From Longimicrobium sp. (GTDB taxonomy: Bacteria > Gemmatimonadota > Gemmatimonadetes > Longimicrobiales > Longimicrobiaceae): a DNA stretch of 64,000 bases. The notes under the pieces were generated by a model. That model did no database searches and was not told the DNA's origin. It saw only the letters and a program-made list of their open reading frames with translations. Positions 30,148 to 43,327 of the stretch are shown here, piece by piece. Where the stretch lies: the NCBI RefSeq assembly GCF_035474595.1, contig NZ_DATIND010000011.1, positions 1 through 64,000 of the forward strand, in the 5' to 3' direction. Made by a program: the position numbers and the translations under genes. Positions within the stretch are counted from its first letter, which is position 1, and each line of letters starts with the position of its first letter.

Positions 30148-30176
30148 TTGACCATTTATGGCGGAGTTTGTATCCT
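30148..30176 (+). promoter_or_regulatory. Sigma-70-like promoter of the RiPP cluster
   Basis: TTGACC (30148-30153) and TATCCT (30171-30176) have an ideal 17-base spacer in AT-rich DNA. They lie about 70 bases upstream of the first precursor gene. This is the best-formed promoter in the window. Confidence 0.65.
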
Positions 30177-30244
30177 CATCGCCGAGCCGCTTGACCGTCC
30201 ACGCAGTACTCACCCAACTCACCCAACTGAACGGAGACAGTACC

Positions 30245-30451
30245 ATGACCAAGCTCGAGAGCCTGAAGGCCGACATCTTCGCCCCCATGAGCGAGTCCGA
30301 GGCGGCGATGGTCAAGGGCGGCATGGCCGAGGCCACGTCGTCGACCGTGTGGAGCAACACCTTCCTGAACGGCACCTACATCGGCAACGACAAGGACATC
30401 TTCACCGACGAGGGCCCGGCGCAGCCGGCCGACCAGATCGCGGCCGCGTAA
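30245..30451 (+). CDS. Grasp-with-SPASM RiPP precursor peptide 1
   Basis: The 68-residue peptide has a 26-residue leader, MTKLESLKADIF to MVKGG, with the double-glycine site for a C39 peptidase. The 42-residue core begins MAEATSSTVW and ends with an acidic, Ala/Pro-rich tail (TDEGPAQPADQIAAA). The core is rich in Thr and Ser at its front and Asp and Glu at its back, the residues an ATP-grasp enzyme joins as esters or amides, and has an NG turn in the middle. The start at 30245 is set by GGAG 9 bases upstream and by agreement with the other seven leaders. It alone lies upstream of the enzyme genes, next to the promoter. Confidence 0.85.
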   Translation: MTKLESLKADIFAPMSESEAAMVKGGMAEATSSTVWSNTFLNGTYIGNDKDIFTDEGPAQPADQIAAA

Positions 30452-30507
30452 GGAAGTACCCCCGGCGTCCTGGGCGACCGGGCGCTGAACCCAGGCGGCT
30501 CATGTGG

Positions 30508-30545
30508 GAAGAGGGGGCACCACCCAGGTCCCCTCTTCTCTTTTC
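30508..30545 (+). terminator. Terminator/attenuator between precursor 1 and the enzyme genes
   Basis: GAAGAGGGG pairs with CCCCTCTTC, followed by TCTTTTCTCT. It would let the precursor be made in excess over the modification enzymes, a common arrangement in RiPP operons. Confidence 0.7.
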
Positions 30546-30555
30546 TCTCTCAGAA

Positions 30556-30607
30556 GCGGTTTCGGGCAGTTTCCAACGCGGTTTCAGAGCAGTTCCAGAG
30601 CAGTTTC
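30556..30607 (+). repeat. Five direct repeats GCRGTTYC at ~11-bp spacing
   Basis: Copies start at 30556 (GCGGTTTC), 30566 (GCAGTTTC), 30578 (GCGGTTTC), 30589 (GCAGTTCC) and 30600 (GCAGTTTC). The steps of 10, 12, 11 and 11 bases match one helical turn. The array lies between the attenuator and the ATP-grasp start and looks like a cooperative protein-binding site. Confidence 0.6.
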
Positions 30608-30667
30608 GCGGGACCGATCCAAAACCCCCATCGAACCGAACCGGCAACGCACGCGGAGTGTGGCGGG

Positions 30668-31663
30668 ATGATTCTGGTGATGAGCCAGGAGAGCTACGAG
30701 TTCTCCACCGACGAGGTCCAGGACTGGATCGAGGCCCTGGGCGGCGACTGTGTGCGGCTGAACGGCGAGGACGTGACCGGGAGCGAGCCGTACGCGCTGC
30801 GCCTGGACGACGCCGGCGAGGCGCTGGAGTTCCGGCTGGACGGCCGCCCCGTGCGCCACGCCGAGGTGGGCGCCGTGTGGCTGCGCCGCTGGCACCAGCT
30901 GCGCGCCCTGGGCCCCGTCACGCAGGACGCCGGGCTGCGCCGCGACGTGCAGTCGCACCTGGCGCGCGAGGTGATGGCCACCTCGGCGTCGATCTTCGGG
31001 ATGCTGGGCGGGGCGCGCTGGCTGTCGCACCCCGAGACCCGGCGCGTGAACAAGCTCCGCGCGCTGCGCGCCGCGCGCGACGCGGGGCTGGCCATTCCCG
31101 CCACGCTGCTGACCAACGACAAGCGCACGCTGCAGGCGTTCATGGCCGCGCACCCCGACGTGATCACCAAGTGCGTGGGCGACGCCGACATGCTGAACGT
31201 GGAGGGCCGCACCTTCGGGATGTACACCGCCCGCCTGAGCGCCGAAGACGTGGACGCGCTTCCCGACACCTTCTTCCCCTCGCTGGTGCAGGAGATGGTG
31301 GAGAAGAGCTGCGAGCTGCGCGTGTTCTACCTGGACGGCGAGTGCTGGCCGATGGCGATCTTCTCCCAGAACGATGCGCAGACGGCGGTGGACTTCCGCC
31401 GCTACAACGTGGAGCGCCCCAACCGCACGGTTCCCTACCGCCTTCCTGCGGAGGTCGAGGCCGCGGTGCGCCGCTTCATGGAAACCATGCGGCTGGACAC
31501 CGGCTCGCTGGACCTGATCCGCACCCCGGACGGGCGCCACGTGTTCCTGGAGGTGAACCCCGCCGGGCAGTTCGCGATGGTGTCGGAGCCGTGCAACTAC
31601 CCCCTGCACCGCAGGGTGGCCGAGTACCTGATCCGGAGGGACGAGCGTGACCACCAGGACTGA
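30668..31663 (+). CDS. gwsG: ATP-grasp peptide maturase, grasp-with-SPASM type
   Basis: The 331-residue ATP-grasp ligase resembles the GwsG maturases of grasp-with-SPASM systems and more distantly the microviridin ligases. Visible features are the pre-ATP-grasp N-domain (1-120), the NKLRALRAARDAGLAIPATL helix-strand entering the grasp fold (128-147), the ATP-binding ITKCVGD strand (166-172), LVQEMVEKSCELRVFYLDG (206-224), and the catalytic end with LDTGSLDLI (276-284) and FLEVNPAGQF (293-302), whose Glu and Asn bind magnesium-ATP. It should activate Asp or Glu side chains of the precursor cores and join them to Thr, Ser or Lys. The GTG of the next gene overlaps its 3' end. Confidence 0.9.
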   Translation: MILVMSQESYEFSTDEVQDWIEALGGDCVRLNGEDVTGSEPYALRLDDAGEALEFRLDGRPVRHAEVGAVWLRRWHQLRALGPVTQDAGLRRDVQSHLAREVMATSASIFGMLGGARWLSHPETRRVNKLRALRAARDAGLAIPATLLTNDKRTLQAFMAAHPDVITKCVGDADMLNVEGRTFGMYTARLSAEDVDALPDTFFPSLVQEMVEKSCELRVFYLDGECWPMAIFSQNDAQTAVDFRRYNVERPNRTVPYRLPAEVEAAVRRFMETMRLDTGSLDLIRTPDGRHVFLEVNPAGQFAMVSEPCNYPLHRRVAEYLIRRDERDHQD

Positions 31664-31868
31664 CGACGACGCCGCGCTGGCCGTGCCCGAAGGGGTGCGC
31701 GAGGCGTTCGACCCGCGGCGGGTGCCGCTGCTGTACCCGCACATGCGCGAGGCGCTGGCGCCCATGCACATCCAGCGCGCCGCCGAAAGCGCGCGCCACC
31801 GCGCGCGGGTGTACGCCTGCGCCGGCTTCTACAAGACCATCTCGCGCTGCATGCGCCTGGGGGAGTGA
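31647..31868 (+). CDS. Unknown 73-residue protein in the RiPP operon
   Basis: The protein is not recognised. It starts at a GTG with a good ribosome-binding site (GGAGGG, 7 bases upstream) that lies inside the end of the ATP-grasp gene; the two genes overlap by 17 bases. The product is soluble, acidic at the front (TRTDDDAALAVPEG) and basic and helical at the back (HIQRAAESARHRARVYACAGF), with two cysteines (57 and 67). Its stop lies 5 bases before the SPASM gene. Position and tight coupling suggest a small partner of one of the maturases. No leader-like or core-like sequence is present. Confidence 0.65.
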   Translation: MTTRTDDDAALAVPEGVREAFDPRRVPLLYPHMREALAPMHIQRAAESARHRARVYACAGFYKTISRCMRLGE

Positions 31869-31873
31869 GAGCC

Positions 31874-32929
31874 ATGCTCGACCGGACCAAGCCCTTCCGC
31901 CTGTTCGCCGGGTGCGTGCCCGTGCGCGGCGCGCGCCGCAGCAGCATCTGCGACCTGCAGCGCGGCAAGCTGCACCTGATTCCCAACGGCCTGTACGAGA
32001 TCGTCACCGAGCACCGCGACCGCACCGTTCCCGAGCTGGAGGCGATGTACGGCCCGGAATGCTCGGAGACGCTGCAGGAGTACTTCACCTTCCTGCTGGG
32101 CAACGACCTGGGCTTCTGGTGCGACGACCCCGAGGCGTTCCCCGACCTGGACCTGTCGTGGGACCGCCCCGAGCGCGTGACCAACGCCATCATCGACTGC
32201 GGCGCCGGGTCGGCGCACGACTGGGAATCGCTCTTCGGCCAGCTGGACGAGCTGGGGTGCAAGGCGCTGCAGCTGCGCTTCTTCGTCCCCATCGCCCTGG
32301 CGGAGCTGGACGCGGTGCTGGGGCTGCTGCACGGCACCCGCGCGCGCTCGGTGGAGCTTCTCCTTCCCTGGAGCGGCGAGTGGACGCGCGAGGAATTGCG
32401 CGCCACGGTGTTCCCGCACCAGCGCGTGTCGGGCGTGGTGGTGCACTCCGCGCCCATGGACGGCGTGGACGAGGGGCGCCCCGGCGACGCGGTGATCCGC
32501 TACCGCGACGAGGTGATGGACTCGCACGCGCACTGCGGGCAGGTGCACCCGGCCTACTTCGCGGTCACGCTGGGCGCCTTCACCGAGGCCACGGGCTTCA
32601 ACTCGTGCCTGAACCGCAAGCTGTCGGTGGACGAGCGCGGCGAGATCCGCAACTGCCCGTCGATGCCGCGCACCTTCGGCAACGCGGCCGGGACGCCGCT
32701 GGCGGCGGCGCTGGCCGCGCCCGGGTTCAGGGACCCGTGGAGCGTGACCAAGGACCAGGTGGAAACCTGCCGCGACTGCGAGTTCCGCTACGTGTGCACC
32801 GACTGCCGCGCCTTCACCCGCGAGTCGGCCGAGCGCCACGCCAAGCCCAGCCGCTGCACCTACGACCCGTACGCCGCGAAGTGGGATGCGTCGTCGTCCG
32901 CCGCCGCCGCGCTGGCCGCGACCGGCTGA
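31874..32929 (+). CDS. gwsS: SPASM-domain peptide maturase lacking radical-SAM cysteines
   Basis: The 351-residue protein resembles GwsS, the partner of GwsG. The C-terminal SPASM-like region is rich in cysteine: C221, C245, C261, then CRDCEFRYVCTDCR (C299, C302, C308, C311) and C328, enough for iron-sulfur clusters. The N-terminal part looks like a degenerate barrel but lacks the CxxxCxxC motif of radical SAM enzymes; where it would be expected the sequence reads IIDCGAGSAHDWE. It is therefore unlikely to cleave SAM and may bind the precursor or scaffold the ATP-grasp enzyme. The start at 31874 has GGGGGAG eight bases upstream. Confidence 0.85.
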   Translation: MLDRTKPFRLFAGCVPVRGARRSSICDLQRGKLHLIPNGLYEIVTEHRDRTVPELEAMYGPECSETLQEYFTFLLGNDLGFWCDDPEAFPDLDLSWDRPERVTNAIIDCGAGSAHDWESLFGQLDELGCKALQLRFFVPIALAELDAVLGLLHGTRARSVELLLPWSGEWTREELRATVFPHQRVSGVVVHSAPMDGVDEGRPGDAVIRYRDEVMDSHAHCGQVHPAYFAVTLGAFTEATGFNSCLNRKLSVDERGEIRNCPSMPRTFGNAAGTPLAAALAAPGFRDPWSVTKDQVETCRDCEFRYVCTDCRAFTRESAERHAKPSRCTYDPYAAKWDASSSAAAALAATG

Positions 32930-32987
32930 GGCGTCCCGAGCGACCCGCACTCCCGCACTTCCGCACCCTCTCGAAAGAAGTACGCGA

Positions 32988-35210
32988 ATGACCGAGAAGT
33001 TGCGCAGCCGGATCCGTCCCCGGCACACGTTCCCCACCTACCGGCAGTTCGACGCCATGGACTGCGGCCCCACCTGCGTGCGCATGGTGGCCCGCCACTA
33101 CGGCAAGCGCTACTCGCTGCAGGAGCTGCGCGAGCGCAGCTGCATCGACCGGCAGGGAGTGTCGCTGCTGGGGATCGCCTACGCGGCCGAGGCGGTGGGG
33201 CTGCGCACGATGTCGGTGCGCACGACCTTCGAGGCGCTGGCCACCGAGGCGCCGCTCCCCTGCATCGCCCACTGGAACCAGAACCACTTCGTCGTCGTCC
33301 ACCGCGTCACCCGCACCCGCGTGTACGTGGCCGACCCGGCCGAGGGGCTGATGAGCTTCAGCCACGACGAGTTCCGGCGCGGCTGGGTGTCGGACGGCGC
33401 GGGCGACGGGGCGCGGGGGGTGCTGCTGCTGCTGGAGCCCACCCCGCACTTCTTCGAGCGCGAGGACCAGAAGGAGGGGAACCGGGCGTCGCTGCGCTAC
33501 ATCGCCAGCTACGTGAAGAGCTACCGCCGCTACTTCGTGCAGGTGGCGCTGGGGATGATGGTGGCCAGCGTGCTGCAGCTGGTGTTCCCCTTCCTCACGC
33601 AGGCCCTGGTCGACTACGGGATCGGCAACCAGGACCTGAGCTTCGTGAACGTGGTGCTGATCGCGCAGCTGGCGCTGTTCATCTCGCGCACCGCGGTGGA
33701 CTTCATCCGCAACCGCATCCTCTTCCACGTGGGGACGCGGATCTACGTATCGCTGATCTCCGACTTCCTGGCCAAGCTGATGCGCCTGCCGGTGCCGTTC
33801 TTCGACACGCGGCACGTGGGCGACATCCTGCAGCGGGTGCAGGACCATTCGCGCATCCAGCAGTTCCTGACCACCACGTCGCTGAACGCGGTGTTCAGCA
33901 TGGTCACGCTCACCGTGTTCAGCGCGGTGCTGGCCATCTACAACGGCACCATCTTCCTGGTGTTCGCGGGCGGGAGCGCGCTGTACATCGCGTACGCCCT
34001 CCTCTTCCTGCGCCGGCGCAAGGAGCTGGACTACCAGAAGTTCGCCGAGAGCGCGCGCAACCAGAGCGCGCTGGTGGAGATGGCGGGGGCCATCGGCGAG
34101 ATCAAGCTGGCCAACGCCGAGCAGCAGAAGCGCTGGCGCTGGGAGCGCATCCAGGCGCGGCTCTTCAAGGTCAGCCTGAAGAGCCTTTCGCTGGAGCAGT
34201 TCCAGGACGGCGGCTCCATCGCCATCAACGAGCTGAAGAACATCGTCATCTCGTTCCTGGCGGCCAAGCTGGTGATCGACGGCCAGCTGACGCTGGGGAT
34301 GCTGCTGGCGGTGCAGTACATCATCGGCCAGCTGAACGGCCCCATCACCCAGCTGGTCGACATCGCCCACGCGGCGCAGGACGCCAAGATCGCGGTGGAG
34401 CGCCTGGGCGAGATCCACCTGCACGAGGACGAGGAAGACCCCGAGAACCGCATCGCCCAGCTCCCCGAGGACGGGTCGATCTCGCTGCGCGGCGTCTCCT
34501 TCAGCTACGGCGGCGCGCTGGGCGAGCCGGTGCTCCAGGACCTGGACCTCGACATCCCCGAAGGGAAGGTGACGGCGGTGGTGGGGGCCAGCGGAAGCGG
34601 AAAGACCACGCTGCTGAAGCTGCTGCTGAAGTTCTACGCCCCCGGCGGCGGCGAGGTGCACGTGGGCGGGTGCAACCTGAGGAACCTTTCCGCGCGCACC
34701 TGGCGGGGGGCCTGCGGCGCGGTGATGCAGGACGGCGCGCTCTTCTCCGACACCATCGCGGGGAACGTGGCGGTGGGCAACGACCACGTGGACCAGCGCC
34801 GCCTGCTGCACGCGGTGCGCGTGGCCAACATCCGCGAGTTCGTGGAGGGGCTGCCGCTGGCCTACAACACCCGCGTGGGGCGCGACGGGGTGGGGATGAG
34901 CCAGGGACAGAAGCAGCGCCTGCTGATTGCCCGCGCCGTCTACAAGAGCCCGCGCTACCTGATGTTCGACGAGGCCACCAGCGCGCTGGACGCCAACAAC
35001 GAGCGCGCGATCATGGAGAACCTGCAGGAGGAGTTCCGCGGGCGCACCGTGGTGATCGTGGCGCACCGGCTGAGCACGGTGAAGAACGCCGACCAGATCG
35101 TGGTGCTGGACCGCGGCCGCGTGGTGGAGCGCGGCACGCACGAGGAGCTGGCCGCGCAGCGCGGGCACTACTACCGGCTGGTGAAGAACCAGCTCGAGCT
35201 GGGGAGCTGA
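32988..35210 (+). CDS. C39 peptidase-containing ABC exporter
   Basis: The 740-residue protein is a bacteriocin-type transporter. The N-terminal C39 cysteine protease domain (1 to about 150) has catalytic Cys 26 in MDCGPTC, His 100 in QNHFVVVH and Asp 116 in VADP; it cuts leaders after GG. A six-helix membrane domain (about 180-450) follows. The ATPase domain has Walker A GASGSGKT (533-540), signature MSQGQ (637-641), Walker B YLMFDE (657-662) and switch His 693. All catalytic residues are intact, so the exporter should mature and secrete the eight GG-leader peptides encoded here. The start at 32988 is chosen for the family N-terminus; a GCACTCCC-type repeat lies just upstream. Confidence 0.95.
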   Translation: MTEKLRSRIRPRHTFPTYRQFDAMDCGPTCVRMVARHYGKRYSLQELRERSCIDRQGVSLLGIAYAAEAVGLRTMSVRTTFEALATEAPLPCIAHWNQNHFVVVHRVTRTRVYVADPAEGLMSFSHDEFRRGWVSDGAGDGARGVLLLLEPTPHFFEREDQKEGNRASLRYIASYVKSYRRYFVQVALGMMVASVLQLVFPFLTQALVDYGIGNQDLSFVNVVLIAQLALFISRTAVDFIRNRILFHVGTRIYVSLISDFLAKLMRLPVPFFDTRHVGDILQRVQDHSRIQQFLTTTSLNAVFSMVTLTVFSAVLAIYNGTIFLVFAGGSALYIAYALLFLRRRKELDYQKFAESARNQSALVEMAGAIGEIKLANAEQQKRWRWERIQARLFKVSLKSLSLEQFQDGGSIAINELKNIVISFLAAKLVIDGQLTLGMLLAVQYIIGQLNGPITQLVDIAHAAQDAKIAVERLGEIHLHEDEEDPENRIAQLPEDGSISLRGVSFSYGGALGEPVLQDLDLDIPEGKVTAVVGASGSGKTTLLKLLLKFYAPGGGEVHVGGCNLRNLSARTWRGACGAVMQDGALFSDTIAGNVAVGNDHVDQRRLLHAVRVANIREFVEGLPLAYNTRVGRDGVGMSQGQKQRLLIARAVYKSPRYLMFDEATSALDANNERAIMENLQEEFRGRTVVIVAHRLSTVKNADQIVVLDRGRVVERGTHEELAAQRGHYYRLVKNQLELGS

Positions 35211-35213
35211 GCC

Positions 35214-37613
35214 ATGAACTCCATGAACGGCACCGCGCCCGCGCCCATGCGCCTGGTGGTGGACGACGCCGGCCGCCGCGTGCTGGTGATCGACGGCGAG
35301 GGGATCGTCCTTCCCGGCGCGCACCCCGCGGGCGAGCCCATCCCCGAGCCGCGGCTGATGTCCGACGAGTCCGGCCGCCGCTGGGTGCTGCTGGGCTCCG
35401 AGCGCGTGGCCCTCCCCCGCCTGGAGCCCGCGCCGGGCGCCGCCGCCCCCGCGGTGATGGTGGGCGAGCCCGCGCGCATCGTGACCGGCGAGGACGGGAA
35501 GCGCGTGGTGGTGGTGGGCGGCGAGCGGCTGGCGCTGCCGCCGGTGGCCTTCGCGCCGGAAGAGGCGGCCGCCGCGCGCGTGGCGACCGACGACTCCGGG
35601 CGCCGCATCCTGTTCGTGGGCTCGCAGCGCGTGATCCTGCACTCCGCCGCCGGCGCCGCCGCCGCGCGGGGAACGGGGACGCACGGCCCCGCCGCGCCCG
35701 CCCCCGCACCCGTTCCCGCGCCGATGCGGGTCGTCGTCGATGAATCCGGGCGGCGGATCCTGGTGGTGGACGGGGAGCGGATCGTGCTGCCCGGCGCGCA
35801 CCCGGGCGGCCCCATCCCCGAGCCGCGGCTGATGATGGACGAGGCCGGGCGCCGCTTTGCCGTGCTGGGCGACGAACGCATTCCGCTTCCCTCCGCCGCG
35901 CCCGCGCCGGCCGCGGCCGCCCCGGGGGCCGGCGAGCCCGCGCGCATCGCCACCGACGACGCGGGGCGGCTGGTGGTGGTGGTCGGCGCCGAGCGCATCC
36001 CCCTGCCGCCGATCGAGCTGAAGCCGGGCGACGCCGAGAGCGTGCGCGTGGTGACGGACGACCACGGGCGCCGCATCCTGTTCGTCGGCGCCGAGCGCAT
36101 CATCCTGCGCGCGGCCTCGGCCCCCGCGCCTGCATCCTCGCCCGCATCGCCGGCGCCGTCTCCGGTCGGGACGATGGGGATGGGGGAGACGGGGACGACG
36201 GCCGCATCTCCATCTCCATCGCCCCACGCCGTTTCGTCATACGTCCCCGCGCGCGAGCCGGCGTTCGCGCCCCTGCCGTTCGACCTGGGCGACGAGGGCG
36301 AGGAGCCGGAGCTGAACCTGCGCAGCGACGAGATGGAGGACATCATCGGCTACGTTCCCCACTGGGTGGTGCGGTGGGGGATCTCGCTGATCTTCGCCAC
36401 CGTGGGCGCGCTGCTGCTGACCAGCTGGTTCGTGCGCTATCCCGACATGGTGGAGGGGAAGGTGACGCTCACCACCCCCGAGCCGCCGTCGCGGCTGGCG
36501 GCGCGCACCGCGGGCGAGGTGGAGAAGCTGTTCGTGGCCGACGGCCAGCCGGTGGAGCGCGGCGCGCCACTGGTGGTGATCCGCGGCCCCGCCGACTACC
36601 GCGACGTGTTCGCGCTGAACGAGCGGCTGGACCGCTTCGAGCGGTCGCTGGCCTCGCCCTCGGTGGCCGCCGCGGTGCCCTTCGACGCCAACCTGTCGCT
36701 GGGCGACATCCAGGCGCCGTACGCCGCCTTCCTGCAGGCGCTGTCGGACTTCCGCTCGTTCTCGGGCGCGGGGTACTACGCCGGCAAGGGCGCCGAGCTG
36801 GAGCGCCAGCTGGCCGAGCAGGAGCGGCTGCGCGAGACGCTGGTGGCCAAGCAGGCGCTGGCGGCCGAGGCGCTGGCCATCTCCGGCCGCAACCGCGACC
36901 GGGCGCGCACGCTGGCCCAGCGCGGGCTGATCTCGCAGGAAGAGATGGAGCGCGCCGAGGCCGACTACATCCAGCACCGCTCGGCCGAGCAGGACGGCCG
37001 CAACGCCATGGCCTCGGGCGAGATCCAGATCTCCAGCCTGCGCAGCCAGCTGCTGGACCTGCGCAAGACCGGCGACGACCAGGGGCGCAACTCGCTGCTC
37101 TCGCTGCGCACCGCCTTCGGCGCGCTGCGGGCCGCGGTGGCGCACTGGGACCAGGAGCACGTGCTGCGCGCGCCGGTGGCGGGCCGGGTCTCGCTCTTCC
37201 GCGGGCTGGCCGAGCACCAGGCGGTGGACGCGAACGACCCCGTCATCGCCGTGGTTCCCGCATCGGGGCGCGTGGTGGGCCGCGTCCTGCTCAGCGAGAG
37301 CGGGGCGGGGAAGGTGGAGCCCGGGCAGACGGTGCTGATCCGCTTCGACAGCTACCCGTCGCGCGAGTTCGGCAGCGTGGAGGGGCGGGTGACGTCCATC
37401 GCGCAGGTGCCCTTCCAGCAGCGCGACAAGGACGAGTCGATGTACCTGGTCGACGTGGCCGTGCCCTCGAAGCTGGTGACCAACTACCACCGCGAGATCC
37501 CCTTCCGGCAGGAGATGCGCGGCCAGGCGCAGATCGTCACCCGCGACCTGCGGCTGCTGGAGCGCGTGTTCAACCAGCTGCGCGACCTGCTGGACCACGC
37601 CGGCGGGCACTGA
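35214..37613 (+). CDS. HlyD-type export adaptor with eight-repeat N-terminal domain
   Basis: The 799-residue protein has an ordinary adaptor in its last 430 residues: SDEMEDIIGYVPHWVVRWG (371-389) before a single membrane helix (about 390-407), lipoyl-type halves (TAGEVEKLFVADGQPVERG and RAPVAGRVSLFRG) around a coiled-coil hairpin (about 525-645), and a C-terminal beta domain. Partners of C39 exporters normally have a short cytosolic N-tail. Here residues 11-300 hold eight copies of a ~33-residue repeat with consensus DDxGRRxLxVxGExIxLP, as two blocks of four (11-142 and 170-300), followed by a Pro/Ser/Ala-rich linker (301-350). The repeats should lie in the cytosol. The start is 3 bases after the exporter gene. 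Confidence 0.9.
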   Translation: MNSMNGTAPAPMRLVVDDAGRRVLVIDGEGIVLPGAHPAGEPIPEPRLMSDESGRRWVLLGSERVALPRLEPAPGAAAPAVMVGEPARIVTGEDGKRVVVVGGERLALPPVAFAPEEAAAARVATDDSGRRILFVGSQRVILHSAAGAAAARGTGTHGPAAPAPAPVPAPMRVVVDESGRRILVVDGERIVLPGAHPGGPIPEPRLMMDEAGRRFAVLGDERIPLPSAAPAPAAAAPGAGEPARIATDDAGRLVVVVGAERIPLPPIELKPGDAESVRVVTDDHGRRILFVGAERIILRAASAPAPASSPASPAPSPVGTMGMGETGTTAASPSPSPHAVSSYVPAREPAFAPLPFDLGDEGEEPELNLRSDEMEDIIGYVPHWVVRWGISLIFATVGALLLTSWFVRYPDMVEGKVTLTTPEPPSRLAARTAGEVEKLFVADGQPVERGAPLVVIRGPADYRDVFALNERLDRFERSLASPSVAAAVPFDANLSLGDIQAPYAAFLQALSDFRSFSGAGYYAGKGAELERQLAEQERLRETLVAKQALAAEALAISGRNRDRARTLAQRGLISQEEMERAEADYIQHRSAEQDGRNAMASGEIQISSLRSQLLDLRKTGDDQGRNSLLSLRTAFGALRAAVAHWDQEHVLRAPVAGRVSLFRGLAEHQAVDANDPVIAVVPASGRVVGRVLLSESGAGKVEPGQTVLIRFDSYPSREFGSVEGRVTSIAQVPFQQRDKDESMYLVDVAVPSKLVTNYHREIPFRQEMRGQAQIVTRDLRLLERVFNQLRDLLDHAGGH
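35244..36113 (+). repeat. Internal coding repeat: two tandem blocks of four units
   Basis: Block 1 (35244-35639) and block 2 (35721-36113) encode matching series of four units. Units 1 and 5 share VLPGAHP, units 2 and 6 begin PEPRLM, units 3 and 7 begin EPARI, units 4 and 8 share GRRILFVG. The order is conserved between blocks, so a four-unit block arose first and was then duplicated. They lie within the adaptor gene. Confidence 0.85.
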
Positions 37614-37656
37614 TACCGGATCCGGCGATCACCTCTGTTCCAGAGGAGCAGAGAGA

Positions 37657-37728
37657 GACGTCATCCTGAGGCCGGCCACACCGTCGTCGTCTCGGCACGA
37701 ACGGCTGCAGGCCGAAGGATCTACAGGC
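37657..37728. repeat. Half element of family A before the precursor array
   Basis: It begins GACGTCATCCTGAGGCCGG and ends GCAGGCCGAAGGATCTACAG, with no closing inverse end nearby. It lies in the 338-base gap (37614-37951) between the adaptor gene and the seven-precursor array. The rest of the gap has no gene and no clear promoter. Confidence 0.75.
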
Positions 37729-37951
37729 GAGGTCGCACGTGCGCTGCGGGATTGCACGATCCCCGCATTCGCAATGATCGATCGGCGAGGGATGCGCCGC
37801 GGACACGGCTCCGCGGCCATCCCCCGGCATCCACGACCCGGATAGATCGGGCCGTGACGTAGGATTTTCCTCGACGGCGGGTGGGCCGTCTCCCGATCCG
37901 CGCCGCTCGCGCGCGGCTCCTCATCTCCCCAGAAACGCAGGAGAAATTCCC

Positions 37952-38140
37952 ATGTCCCGACTGGAATCCCTGAATTCCGAGCTGTTCCAGCCGCTCGCGG
38001 AGCAGGACGCGGCCAGCCTGCAGGGCGGCAGCGGCGCCACGATGATGTACATCGGGAAGAGCTACGACATCATGCCCGACGGCACCCGCATCGAGGACAA
38101 CGACTTCATCGGCGACACCGAGCCCACGCAGCCGGCCTGA
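37952..38140 (+). CDS. RiPP precursor peptide 2
   Basis: The 62-residue peptide has leader MSRLESLNSELF to SLQGG (26 residues) and a 36-residue core running SGATMMYIGKSYDI to EPTQPA. The core holds Thr and Lys acceptors, a PDG turn, and acidic residues in IEDNDFIGDTE. GGAGA lies 8 bases before the ATG. First of the downstream tandem array; product is predicted to be crosslinked by the ATP-grasp enzyme and exported by the C39 transporter. Confidence 0.85.
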   Translation: MSRLESLNSELFQPLAEQDAASLQGGSGATMMYIGKSYDIMPDGTRIEDNDFIGDTEPTQPA

Positions 38141-38166
38141 CCCCTTCACGCGCGGAGAATCCCCCG

Positions 38167-38376
38167 ATGTCCCGGCTTGAATCCCTGAGCTCCGACGTCT
38201 TCCAGCCCCTCGACGACGAGCAGTCGGCGGCGGTGCAGGGCGGCGCGGCGGCGGCCACGCAGATGCTGGTGAAGGGCATGACGTTCATCAGCGACGGCAG
38301 CTACGTCTACGACTACGACATCTACACCGACGACGACGTGGCGCCCGCCGAGCCGATCGGCACGGTGGGAGCCTGA
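38167..38376 (+). CDS. RiPP precursor peptide 3
   Basis: The 69-residue peptide has leader MSRLESLSSDVF to AAVQGG and a 43-residue core with FISDGSYVYDYDIYTDDD and the tail APAEPIGTVGA. Leader, hairpin-like middle and tail are closely related to precursor 4, so these two are the most recent duplicates in the array. CGGAGA precedes the start. Confidence 0.85.
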   Translation: MSRLESLSSDVFQPLDDEQSAAVQGGAAAATQMLVKGMTFISDGSYVYDYDIYTDDDVAPAEPIGTVGA

Positions 38377-38411
38377 TCCCCCTGATCCACACACGCACGG
38401 AGAGCTTCCCG

Positions 38412-38621
38412 ATGTCCCGACTGGAATCCCTGAGCTCCGACCTGTTCCAGCCCCTCGACGCCGGCCAGCAGGCGTCGGTGCAGGGCGGGATGGCGGCGCC
38501 CACGCAGCTGATCCGCGGCGCCAACACCTTCCTGAGCGACGGCACCGTGGTGATGGACTACGACATCTCGCCCGACGACGACTCCGCTCCGGCCGAGCCC
38601 ATCGGCACGCTCGGAGCCTGA
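38412..38621 (+). CDS. RiPP precursor peptide 4
   Basis: The 69-residue peptide has leader MSRLESLSSDLF to ASVQGG and a core with FLSDGTVVMDYDISPDDD and tail APAEPIGTLGA. It differs from precursor 3 mainly at the front of the core (MAAPTQLIRGANT) and in the strand after the DG turn, the pattern expected if the core diversifies while the leader is held constant. Confidence 0.85.
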   Translation: MSRLESLSSDLFQPLDAGQQASVQGGMAAPTQLIRGANTFLSDGTVVMDYDISPDDDSAPAEPIGTLGA

Positions 38622-38681
38622 CCCACCCGCTCCCCGCACCCGCGGGGCCCAACATCCACCTTTCGAGAGACGGAGATGACG

Positions 38682-38876
38682 ATGTCGAAGCTGGAATCGC
38701 TGAACGAGGCGCTCTTCACGCCGCTGTCGGCGGAAGAGACGGAGATGCTGAAGGGCGGAATCGCCTCGACGCCCGCGCAGACCTACATCAAGGACTACAC
38801 GATCATCAACGGTCAGGTGGTCGTGGAGCTCATTCCCGATCCGGACTCCACCACCGTCGCCGAGGCCGTGGCGTGA
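38682..38876 (+). CDS. RiPP precursor peptide 5
   Basis: The 64-residue peptide has leader MSKLESLNEALF to EMLKGG and a core IASTPAQTYIKDYTI with an NG turn and acidic VELIPDPDST. The second ATG (38682) is chosen over 38676 because GGAG abuts the first and is correctly spaced for the second, and it aligns with the other leaders. Its end overlaps the next precursor by four bases. Confidence 0.82.
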   Translation: MSKLESLNEALFTPLSAEETEMLKGGIASTPAQTYIKDYTIINGQVVVELIPDPDSTTVAEAVA

Positions 38877-39055
38877 GCTCGCGCCCCACGCTGCAGCCGC
38901 TCGACGACGCGCTGTTCGCCCCGCTCGCGGCGGCCGAGGCCGCGCAGGTGAAGGGCGGCGCCGCCGCGACCGAGCAGCCGGGAAGCACGCTGATGCTCGT
39001 TCCGGTCTACGGGCTGGACGGCAACTTCATCGGCTGGGACTACGTGACCGACTGA
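38873..39055 (+). CDS. RiPP precursor peptide 6 (divergent leader)
   Basis: The 60-residue peptide starts at a GTG that overlaps the stop of precursor 5 (GTGA). Its leader is 29 residues and begins MSSRPTLQPLDDALF rather than with LESL, but keeps F-x-PL and the QVKGG end. The core AAATEQPGSTLMLVPVYG has an LDGN turn and ends WDYVTD with a terminal Asp. Absence of its own ribosome-binding site suggests coupled translation. Confidence 0.78.
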   Translation: MSSRPTLQPLDDALFAPLAAAEAAQVKGGAAATEQPGSTLMLVPVYGLDGNFIGWDYVTD

Positions 39056-39096
39056 TCCCGCCGATTCCCTCATCTCCCCATGCACAGGAGGACGCC

Positions 39097-39282
39097 ATGA
39101 AGAAGCTGGAATCGCTGAGCGAGGCGCAGTTCGCGCCGCTGGCGGAGGACGAAGCCGCGCAGGTGAAGGGCGGCATGATCGCCACCGCGACGCAGACGTT
39201 CGCGGCCGACTACGTCAACGGCGTGTTCGTCGGCTACGGCCGCGACGAGGACGAGCAGGCGGAGCCCGCGACCGTCGCCTGA
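39097..39282 (+). CDS. RiPP precursor peptide 7
   Basis: The 61-residue peptide has leader MKKLESLSEAQF to AQVKGG and a core MIATATQTFAADYV with an NG turn and the acidic stretch GRDEDEQAE before PATVA. A strong AGGAGG ribosome-binding site lies 6 bases before the start. Confidence 0.85.
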   Translation: MKKLESLSEAQFAPLAEDEAAQVKGGMIATATQTFAADYVNGVFVGYGRDEDEQAEPATVA

Positions 39283-39350
39283 CCGGCGCCGCGGCCCCAT
39301 CGACCCCGAACCCATCGGCCGGCCCGTCCGGCCGGCACGGAGAAGCTGCC

Positions 39351-39521
39351 ATGACCCGTCTGGAATCGCTGAGCGACGCGCGCTTCGCGCCGCTCGCGAC
39401 GGAAGAAGCCGCGCAGATCAGGGGCGGCGCCACCGTCTCGGACCCGCCGACGTACCACTGGGTGATCGTGAACGACCAGATGATCCAGGAGCCCGACTTC
39501 GACGCTGTGAGCGCGGGGTGA
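39351..39521 (+). CDS. RiPP precursor peptide 8
   Basis: The 56-residue peptide is the shortest: leader MTRLESLSDARF to AQIRGG and a 30-residue core ATVSDPPTYHWVIVND that ends EPDFDAVSAG. It keeps the acceptor residues at the front and acidic residues at the back, but its central turn reads ND instead of DG or NG. GGAGAA precedes the ATG. It ends the array, ahead of a repeat element and a terminator. Confidence 0.8.
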   Translation: MTRLESLSDARFAPLATEEAAQIRGGATVSDPPTYHWVIVNDQMIQEPDFDAVSAG

Positions 39522-39532
39522 TACGAGATCCA

Positions 39533-39647
39533 GTAGGAAGGATCGGTGCATCCGACCCACTCACGTGCTGCCGCGCCCACAGATCCTTCGGCCTGCAAGG
39601 TGTTGCGCTAACTCAAGTTGCAGTGTGGCCGGCCTCAGGATGACGTC
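39533..39647. repeat. Family A repeat, right-half copy at the end of the RiPP cluster
   Basis: It starts GAAGGATCGGTGCATCCGAC and runs through AGATCCTTCGGCCTGCAAGG to the end CGGCCTCAGGATGACGTC. A near-identical ~110-bp copy lies at 42017-42126, so the two bracket the quinone oxidoreductase and LigD-type polymerase genes. Confidence 0.85.
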
Positions 39648-39699
39648 GGGGGGGCAGCGCGGATGCAGAAGCTGATCTCCCGGATCTGGTATACCGACG

Positions 39700-39729
39700 A
39701 AAGGGGAGCCCGCGCGGGGCTCCCCTTTC
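39700..39729. terminator. Bidirectional terminator after the RiPP cluster
   Basis: AAAGGGGAGCCC pairs with GGGCTCCCCTTT over a 5-base loop, with A-tract and T-tract inside the stem ends. It lies between the last precursor (plus) and the oxidoreductase gene (minus), serving both. Confidence 0.85.
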
Positions 39730-41017: not shown

Positions 41018-42001
41018 ATGGCCGCACCGAAAGCGAAGCCGAAATCCACGCCCGCCAACGTGCGCCAGGCCGACGCGGGTCCGGAGCTGATCCCCGCGCG
41101 CGGCAAGGCGTGCGAGGTGAAGGTGGGCGGCAAGTCCGTGCGGCTGACCAACCTGCACAAGCCGTTCTGGCCGGAGCTGGGGATCACCAAGGGCGACCTG
41201 CTGCGCTACTACCTGGCCGTCAGCCCGTACCTGCTGCCGCACCTGCGCGGCCGCGCCATGGTGATGAAGCGCTACCCCAACGGCTGGAACGGCCCGTTCT
41301 TCTTCATGAAGCGCACGCCGTCGGGCGCGCCGGCGTGGCTGAAGACCTGCGCCATCGAGCACAAGAGCAAGAGCATCATCGACTTTCCCATCGTCAACGA
41401 CGTGGCGTCGCTGCTCTGGGTGGTGAACCTGGGGTGCATCGACCTGAACCAGTGGTACGCCACCTGTGAGGACTACAACCGCCCCGACTACGTGCACTTC
41501 GACCTGGACCCCGTCCCCGGCGCGGACTTCGCGCGGGTGCGGCAGGTGGCGCTGCACGTGCGCGACGCGCTGGCCAAGCTGGGGATGAAGAGCTACCCCA
41601 AGACCACCGGCTCCAAGGGGATCCACATCTACGTGCCGATCGTGCGCGGGCCGCTGCAGAAGCAGGTGTGGGGCTTCGCCAAGCGCTTCGCGCAGGCGAT
41701 GGAGCAGCTCTACCCCGACCTCGTCACGGCCGAGTACCGCGTCGCCAGGCGCCCCGCGGGCCGCGTGCTGGTCGACTACAACCAGAACGCGTGGGGCCGC
41801 ACGCTGGCGTCCGTCTACTCCGTCCGCGCCAAGCCCGGCGCCACGGTTTCCACACCGGTCACGTGGGACGAGGTCGAGGGCGGCGTGGAGATCGAGGACT
41901 TCACCGTCCTGAACGTCCCCGCGCGGCTGAAGGAGAAGGGTGATCTGTATCGCCCCCTGCTGCTGAACCGCGGAAGATTCGACCTGTCGAAGCTGATCTG
42001 A
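41018..42001 (+). CDS. LigD-type NHEJ polymerase (primase-polymerase domain)
   Basis: The 327-residue protein matches the polymerase domain of bacterial ligase D. Landmarks are LTNLHKPFWPELGITKGDLLRYY near the front (cited as LTNLHKPFWPELGITKG), RYPNGWNGPFFFMKR, the catalytic acids in VHFDLDPVPGADF, and TTGSKGIHIYVPI. It should fill or add nucleotides at broken ends during non-homologous end joining. In many bacteria this domain is fused to the ligase; here it is a separate gene, with an ATP-dependent ligase 300 bases downstream. A GCACTCCC-type repeat lies just before the start. No Ku gene is in the window. Confidence 0.9.
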   Translation: MAAPKAKPKSTPANVRQADAGPELIPARGKACEVKVGGKSVRLTNLHKPFWPELGITKGDLLRYYLAVSPYLLPHLRGRAMVMKRYPNGWNGPFFFMKRTPSGAPAWLKTCAIEHKSKSIIDFPIVNDVASLLWVVNLGCIDLNQWYATCEDYNRPDYVHFDLDPVPGADFARVRQVALHVRDALAKLGMKSYPKTTGSKGIHIYVPIVRGPLQKQVWGFAKRFAQAMEQLYPDLVTAEYRVARRPAGRVLVDYNQNAWGRTLASVYSVRAKPGATVSTPVTWDEVEGGVEIEDFTVLNVPARLKEKGDLYRPLLLNRGRFDLSKLI

Positions 42002-42016
42002 CACGGAATCCGAGAG

Positions 42017-42126
42017 AAGGATCGGTGCATCCGACTAGCTCACGTGCTGCCGCACCCACAGATCCTTCGGCCTGGAAGGTGTTGCGCTGATACGAGTTAC
42101 GGTGTGGTCGGCCTCAGGATGACGTC
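42017..42126. repeat. Family A repeat, right-half copy between polymerase and ligase genes
   Basis: This is the near-identical partner of the 39533-39647 copy, ending CGGCCTCAGGATGACGTC. It is in the same orientation, which would allow recombination between them. Confidence 0.85.
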
Positions 42127-42177
42127 GGTGCGCAGGGCGGATGCTGATGCGAGACGAAGCCCTTCACCGCGCCGAAC

Positions 42178-42233
42178 AGCCTCGCGCAGTTTGCGAGGCT
42201 TCCCGTGGTTGTTGCTGCGACTTCAGTCGCCGG
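42178..42233. repeat. 56-bp double-hairpin unit (family B)
   Basis: AGCCTCGCGCAGTTTGCGAGG forms the first hairpin, GCGACTTCAGTCGC the second, joined by TTCCCGTGGTTGTTGCT. It differs from the copies at 746 and 26295 by a single base. Confidence 0.85.
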
Positions 42234-42298
42234 GCAGCGGGGCCGGGGCTCGCACGAAACTCCTTGGGTAACGAACGAACACGTTGGAAAGAAAGAAG

Positions 42299-43327
42299 AT
42301 GGAGCTGCCGATCGGGCTGGACTACGCGCCCATGGAGGCCGACAGCGCGGCCGAGATCCCCACGGGCGCCGGGTGGATGTACGAGCCCAAGTGGGACGGC
42401 TTCCGCTGCCTGGCCTTCCGCGACGGCGACGAGGTGGACCTGCGCTCCAAGGCCGGGAAGCCGCTCGCGCGCTACTTCCCCGACGTCGTCCAGGCGATGC
42501 TGTCGCTGCGCGCGAAGCGCTTCGTCCTCGACGGCGAGATCGTCGTCCCCGTCGGCGACTCGCTCTCGTTCGAGGAGCTGCAGCTGCGCCTCCATCCCGC
42601 CGCGAGCCGCGTGGCGAAGCTGGCGGCGGCGCACCCGGCCGTCTTCGTCGCCTTCGACCTGCTGCTGGGCCCGCGCGGCGGCCCGGTCCACGACCGGCCG
42701 CTGGAGGAGCGGCGCCGCAAGCTGGAGGAGTTCGCGGAGCAGTTCTTCGAGGCCGGCGGCCCCGTCCGCCTCTCGAAGTCGACGTGCGACGTGGGCGAGG
42801 CGAAGGGGTGGCTCACCGGCGGCGTGCGGGGACTGGACGGCGTGATGGCCAAGCGCGAGGACGAGCCCTACGCCAGCGGCGAGCGCACCGCGATGGTGAA
42901 GATCAAGAACCTGCGCACCGCCGAGTGCGTGGTCGGCGGCTTCCGCTACCTGCAGAAAAAGCCCGTCATCGGCTCGCTCCTGCTCGGCCTCTACACGGTG
43001 GACGGGCTGCTGCACCACATCGGCTTCTGCTCCGCGATTCCCGAGGAGGAACGCGAGGAGCTGACGCCGAAGCTGGAAAAGCTGCGGCAGGCGCCCGGCT
43101 TCACCGGCAGCGCGCCCGGCGGCCCCAGCCGCTGGAGCACCGAGCGCTCCACCCAGTGGGAGCCGCTGGCGCCGAAGCTGGTCGCCGAGGTGCAGTACGA
43201 CCACTTCAGCGGCGGCCGCTTCCGCCACGGCACCCGCTTCCTCCGCTGGCGCCCCGACAAGGAGCCGCGCCAGTGCAGCATGGAGCAGGTGATCCGCGAG
43301 AGCCGGTCTACGGCGGCATTGCTGTAA
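42299..43327 (+). CDS. ATP-dependent DNA ligase (NHEJ-type)
   Basis: The 342-residue ligase has motif I EPKWDGFRC with the adenylated Lys, motif III region FVLDGEIVVP, motif IV GVMAKRED, and motif V VKIKNLRTAE, followed by an OB-fold half with SRWSTERSTQWEPL. The size fits a stand-alone two-domain ligase rather than a LigD fusion. It should seal double-strand breaks, working with the polymerase encoded upstream. The ATG at 42299 has GGAAAGAAAG in front; a TTG five codons earlier is possible. Confidence 0.9.
   Translation: MELPIGLDYAPMEADSAAEIPTGAGWMYEPKWDGFRCLAFRDGDEVDLRSKAGKPLARYFPDVVQAMLSLRAKRFVLDGEIVVPVGDSLSFEELQLRLHPAASRVAKLAAAHPAVFVAFDLLLGPRGGPVHDRPLEERRRKLEEFAEQFFEAGGPVRLSKSTCDVGEAKGWLTGGVRGLDGVMAKREDEPYASGERTAMVKIKNLRTAECVVGGFRYLQKKPVIGSLLLGLYTVDGLLHHIGFCSAIPEEEREELTPKLEKLRQAPGFTGSAPGGPSRWSTERSTQWEPLAPKLVAEVQYDHFSGGRFRHGTRFLRWRPDKEPRQCSMEQVIRESRSTAALL

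Follow-up and report, generated by a model that had tools for sequence, protein, structure and literature searches.

Grasp-with-SPASM graspetide clusters have been described in Bacteroidota (branch 5 in PMC8939145, apparently group 14 in PMC13097080), where the TIGR04192 and TIGR04193 proteins are paired, the gene immediately before the SPASM gene encodes an LPL protein (PMC8939145), the precursors have GG leaders, many loci have C39/HlyD export and several unlike precursors share a locus. The LPL family was described as specific to the Bacteroides branch, and a "cluster 23" auxiliary protein accompanies almost all branch 5 loci (PMC8939145). A 2026 survey recorded the co-occurrence of SPASM proteins without assigning them a function (PMC13097080), and the literature searched yielded neither a characterised product of SPASM-containing graspetide systems nor a function assigned to their partner protein. 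Here, a locus with the paired maturases, the LPL gene, several unlike GG precursors and C39/HlyD export was analysed in a 64-kb window (the whole stretch examined, positions 1 to 64,000 of contig NZ_DATIND010000011.1) of the 6.57-Mb genome of Longimicrobium sp. It differed from the Bacteroidota loci in its Gemmatimonadota host, in its eight precursors split 1 + 7 (0-4 in the others), in its Cys-free cores and in a long extension of the HlyD adaptor. The locus is probably a complete grasp-with-SPASM graspetide cluster in which the SPASM partner (GwsS) binds the leader, the ATP-grasp synthetase (GwsG) crosslinks the core and one enzyme set gives eight products. Evenly balanced, in our judgement, is the more specific proposal that GwsS is a pseudoenzyme descended from a radical S-adenosylmethionine (SAM)/SPASM maturase; having lost the SAM cluster, it would now join LPL in binding the leader on behalf of the ATP-grasp crosslinker, a single synthetase thereby serving a locally expanded natural library of eight graspetide cores.

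Both maturases scored above the curated cut-offs of the GwsG and GwsS profiles: 264.8 bits for the ATP-grasp protein (TIGR04192, cut-off 230) and 303.3 bits for the SPASM protein (TIGR04193, cut-off 175), their genes lying about 210 nt apart. This agreed with the class proposed in a first-pass annotation of the sequence, and no unrelated family fitted the maturases better; its suggestion of a "Gemmatimonadota-like" host was likewise supported, a same-family genome being Gemmatimonadetes bacterium RYN_364. Six PDB sequences matched the ATP-grasp protein (best E 8.8e-33), including AMdnB and CdnC, which we take to be microviridin-type ligases, and ATP-grasp peptide ligases were among the matches. 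No second grasp-with-SPASM synthetase was present in the genome, just weak ATP-grasp matches at C24 and C152. The eight precursors, ATP-grasp enzyme, SPASM protein, C39 exporter and HlyD adaptor were all found where they had been placed, in the order p1, synthetase, LPL, SPASM partner, C39 exporter, HlyD adaptor and p2-p8, and relatives kept the same gene order. The features are given below in window positions; p1 to p8 were each supported by a leader hidden Markov model (HMM) and a precursor alignment.

30148 to 30176, plus strand: sigma-70-like promoter, TTGACC-17-TATCCT (scan: one found, 0.3 expected)
30245 to 30451, plus strand: precursor p1, 68 aa (core orthologues in two relatives)
30668 to 31663, plus strand: GwsG, ATP-grasp graspetide synthetase (TIGR04192; PDB sequence matches)
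31647 to 31868, plus strand: LPL-family small protein, 73 aa, GTG start (shared motifs; HMMs built without the window sequence)
31874 to 32929, plus strand: GwsS, SPASM partner (TIGR04193; RRE-like residues 1-82, degenerate barrel, SPASM Cys cluster)
32988 to 35210, plus strand: C39 peptidase/ABC exporter (PF03412, PF00664, PF00005; active-site and Walker motifs)
35214 to 37613, plus strand: HlyD-type adaptor with an N-terminal extension of about 380 aa and at least 7 short repeats (PF13437)
37952 to 38140, plus strand: precursor p2, 62 aa
38167 to 38376, plus strand: precursor p3, 69 aa
38412 to 38621, plus strand: precursor p4, 69 aa, tandem duplicate of p3
38682 to 38876, plus strand: precursor p5, 64 aa, alternative start 38676
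38873 to 39055, plus strand: precursor p6, 60 aa, GTG start, 4-nt overlap with the p5 stop
39097 to 39282, plus strand: precursor p7, 61 aa
39351 to 39521, plus strand: precursor p8, 56 aa
39695 to 39732, no strand: GC-rich palindrome separating convergent genes, possibly a weak terminator

The cluster had also been described as lying between a promoter and a bidirectional terminator. The promoter was recovered, while the terminator stood only in part: the palindrome exists, but it was rejected by the terminator scan and its U-run is short.

No Pfam domain above cut-off and no match in a PDB sequence search were obtained for GwsS. Its full structural model (pLDDT 88.5) had a single significant PDB structure match, the radical SAM/SPASM sactipeptide maturase CteB (5WHY, E 2.7e-5), with which it shares the predicted order RiPP recognition element (RRE), barrel and SPASM domain. 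GwsS differs from CteB in its shortened barrel and in the lack of the radical-SAM motif CX3CX2C, absent from GwsS and from every homologue checked, and the window cores are without Cys. Residues 1-87 modelled alone (pLDDT 95.6) showed a predicted RRE fold, strands followed by three helices, and their top 15 PDB matches all contained an RRE (leader-bound lasso B1 proteins, PbtF, CteB, TigE, ThcOx and a heterocyclase). On the basis of these models, the probable role of GwsS is to keep the leader in place for the synthetase. There is a precedent for such a partner role in rosaritide (MirA/MirB/MirC), where the graspetide synthetase MirB requires MirC, an obligate partner which also has a weakly RRE-like N-terminal domain, although MirC is PPIase (peptidyl-prolyl isomerase)/chaperone-like and not a SPASM protein (PMC13097080).

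GwsS could instead be an enzyme that itself modifies the peptide: a thioether, a C-C bond or an oxidation would be added after the ester rings by the SPASM Fe-S clusters or by a non-canonical SAM site. The SPASM Cys pattern CX9-15GX4C ... CX2CX5C ... C is indeed kept (C245, C261, C299, C302, C308, C311 and C328 in the 351-aa numbering; TIGR04085 score 23.8 bits, slightly under the cut-off of 27), a thioether-type role has been assumed for Bacteroidota (PMC8939145), and 13 of 26 sampled Bacteroidota cores contain Cys. This alternative was nevertheless considered unlikely, given that no homologue has CX3CX2C, that all eight window cores are Cys-free, a thioether from a core Cys thus being excluded, and that the SPASM Cys residues are partly or wholly lost in six Bacteroidota homologues (L130, L121, L123, L124, L126 and L044). 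Judged from these sequences, the losses suggest that the Fe-S clusters may be dispensable.

The precursor set was examined with a leader HMM built solely from relatives (L034-L040), which avoids circularity. Across the window it recovered all eight of the named precursors (E 6e-13 to 5e-6) and no ninth open reading frame (ORF) at E<1; the best values in the controls were 0.41 for ten Markov shuffles and 0.37 for the reversed window. A profile of the precursor alignment found eight precursors in the whole genome, all at the locus, with no orphans elsewhere. All eight share a leader ending in GG, with the consensus LExLxxxxFxPL...GG, and mean identity was 53% for leaders, 26% for cores and 18% for shuffled cores. 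Lys was present in four cores. A turn followed by acidic residues was seen in 8/8 cores against a shuffled mean of 0.09 (pattern chosen after viewing the cores), and a DxD[YFI][YFI]xD-like acceptor motif, defined post hoc, recurred in cores of other Gemmatimonadota and of Bacteroidota, e.g. DTDYYTD. No match to TIGR04149 or TIGR04139 (NCBIfam, E<=1) was obtained for p1, p2, p5, p7 and p8; grasp-with-SPASM systems need not show such a match, as profiles of this kind also miss 79 of the 87 precursor clusters in the Bacteroidota branch (PMC8939145).

The core of p1 was conserved in two relatives, L039 and L040 (TSST..SN...G.YIG.DKD.FTD), for which reason p1 looks ancestral; it is likely the ancestral core, still at the ancestral site upstream of the synthetase. 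The p2-p8 genes seem to have multiplied locally through tandem duplication, which is evident for p3 and p4 (tandem duplicates, 245-bp spacing). That p1 is the sole working substrate, p2-p8 being decaying or silent copies, was regarded as quite improbable. It would fit the conserved orthologues in relatives, found for p1 alone, and the p2-p8 array, seen in no other genome (the contig of the same-genus G273, C110, ends about 0.5 kb past hlyD, and a downstream array could be missed there); however, all seven genes keep the start, leader, GG and shared core layout, with GC contents at third codon positions of 0.89-0.95 and no frameshift or internal stop. Perfect 25-nt inverted copies of a repeat bracket the array (37657-37681 and 39623-39647). 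A mobile or invertible p2-p8 cassette was considered and rejected: the flanking element is an abundant dispersed repeat whose 22-nt core has 327 copies in the genome (<=2 mismatches; backward control 0), so its position around the array is not specific.

A "combinatorial library", as had been suggested for the locus, is plausible from the sequences, the leaders being more alike than the cores and one layout serving all cores. The idea is not new, because several different cores per ATP-grasp ligase have already been published for Bacteroidota (PMC8939145). Prochlorosins (ProcM) are alike in offering many precursors to a single promiscuous enzyme and differ in their lanthipeptide chemistry, Nif11-type leaders and picocyanobacterial hosts (PMC10783134).

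In the proposed mechanism, the N-terminal domain of GwsS would bind the common leader and present the core to the ATP-grasp enzyme, which would phosphorylate Asp/Glu side chains and join them to Thr/Ser hydroxyls to form macrolactones, with lactams possible in the four Lys-bearing cores and 18 Da expected to be lost for each ring formed. The C39 domain of the exporter, in which Cys30/His100/Asp115 are intact, would cleave after GG and the ABC-HlyD pump, its Walker motifs likewise intact, would export the product, the eight divergent cores on one layout giving eight products per enzyme set.

Several observations weigh against the leader-binding and eight-product interpretation. GwsS retains its SPASM Cys cluster, which leaves room for an Fe-S or redox function; the RRE matches, though consistent, have marginal E-values (best 2.1e-3); both core patterns were defined post hoc; and the p2-p8 array lies 338 nt from hlyD with no promoter of its own in evidence, its co-expression with the rest of the cluster being only putative. 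Another graspetide type merely resembling grasp-with-SPASM is very hard to credit, the sub-threshold matches to the MvdC/MvdD models of microviridin-like systems (TIGR04185, 185.6 vs. 425 bits; TIGR04184, 134.7 vs. 475 bits) and to the NHLP exporter model (TIGR03796, 483.9 vs. 853.3 bits) lying far under cut-offs that TIGR04192 and TIGR04193 exceed, and the LPL gene being specific to the grasp-with-SPASM branch (PMC8939145).

The LPL gene, a 73-codon ORF between the two maturase genes, had been missed in the first-pass annotation. It lies directly upstream of the SPASM gene, as in Bacteroidota, and its product shares the [LV]PL-Y and C-terminal FYKxISRC motifs with small proteins encoded at the corresponding position of Gemmatimonadota, Acidobacteria and Bacteroidota loci. 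HMMs built without the window sequence recognised it at E 2e-14 (all relatives), 7e-18 (Gemmatimonadota only) and 2.1e-5 (Bacteroidota and Acidobacteria only), no other window ORF scoring below E 6 with the last model. By sequence similarity, the LPL family reaches two further phyla.

Among 395 sampled genomes of Gemmatimonadota, TIGR04193 was above cut-off in 6, all from one family-level group, with 8 loci in total; two genomes have two loci each, G224 (L038 and L040, with differing precursor types) and G243 (L035 and L037). The TIGR04192 and TIGR04193 pair was also found in one Acidobacteria gp7 genome. At that locus (L042), GwsG, LPL and GwsS were present, no C39/HlyD homologue was detected nearby, and further downstream lay two GG peptides whose leaders belong to a different type (LSRESLRRLDEEELRRADGG). 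TIGR04192 exceeded its cut-off in 14 of 395 genomes sampled from the phylum to which G404 (Flavobacteriaceae) belongs and in 100 of 296 from the family of G500, which, together with PMC8939145, bears out the earlier statement that these systems occur mainly in Bacteroidetes. In the GwsS tree, the Gemmatimonadota and Acidobacteria proteins grouped with one or two Bacteroidota sequences (support 93/97 and 99/93).

The other Gemmatimonadota loci had one to three leaders each, and about 40 Bacteroidota loci had 0-3 precursors, one perhaps 4, by a heuristic reading of all small GG ORFs. The expectation of few precursors each thus held (0-4 in about 47 other loci), and eight was the highest count among about 48 loci. 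As far as our tools show, the new elements are a full Gemmatimonadota version of the system (which may already stand in the supplementary tables of graspetide surveys), a precursor set larger than at any other locus read, an LPL family that spans phyla, the model-based reading of GwsS as an RRE joined to a putatively dead radical-SAM protein, and a repetitive cytosolic HlyD extension. The locus makes the question of partner function testable: its Cys-free cores exclude Cys-derived thioethers and the predicted RRE leads directly to a prediction of binding. With eight natural cores, the single enzyme set also comes with a ready substrate panel for the rules of the synthetase.

The HlyD extension, also missed before, corresponds to a part of about 380 aa (35214-36350) preceding the membrane helix, in which repeats following the pattern VVDDxGRRILVVxGERIVLP occur at least 7 times. 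It is common to L039 and L040 and absent from three Bacteroidota adaptors checked, which have a short N-terminus ahead of the helix; it is perhaps a cytosolic docking platform.

Flanking genes were identified as encoding HD, ADH and LigD-type proteins. LigD-type primase-polymerase and ATP-dependent DNA ligase genes adjoin the cluster (41084-43327) and are unrelated to it. A second C39 peptidase is encoded elsewhere in the host genome (G000:C64:27143-27520).

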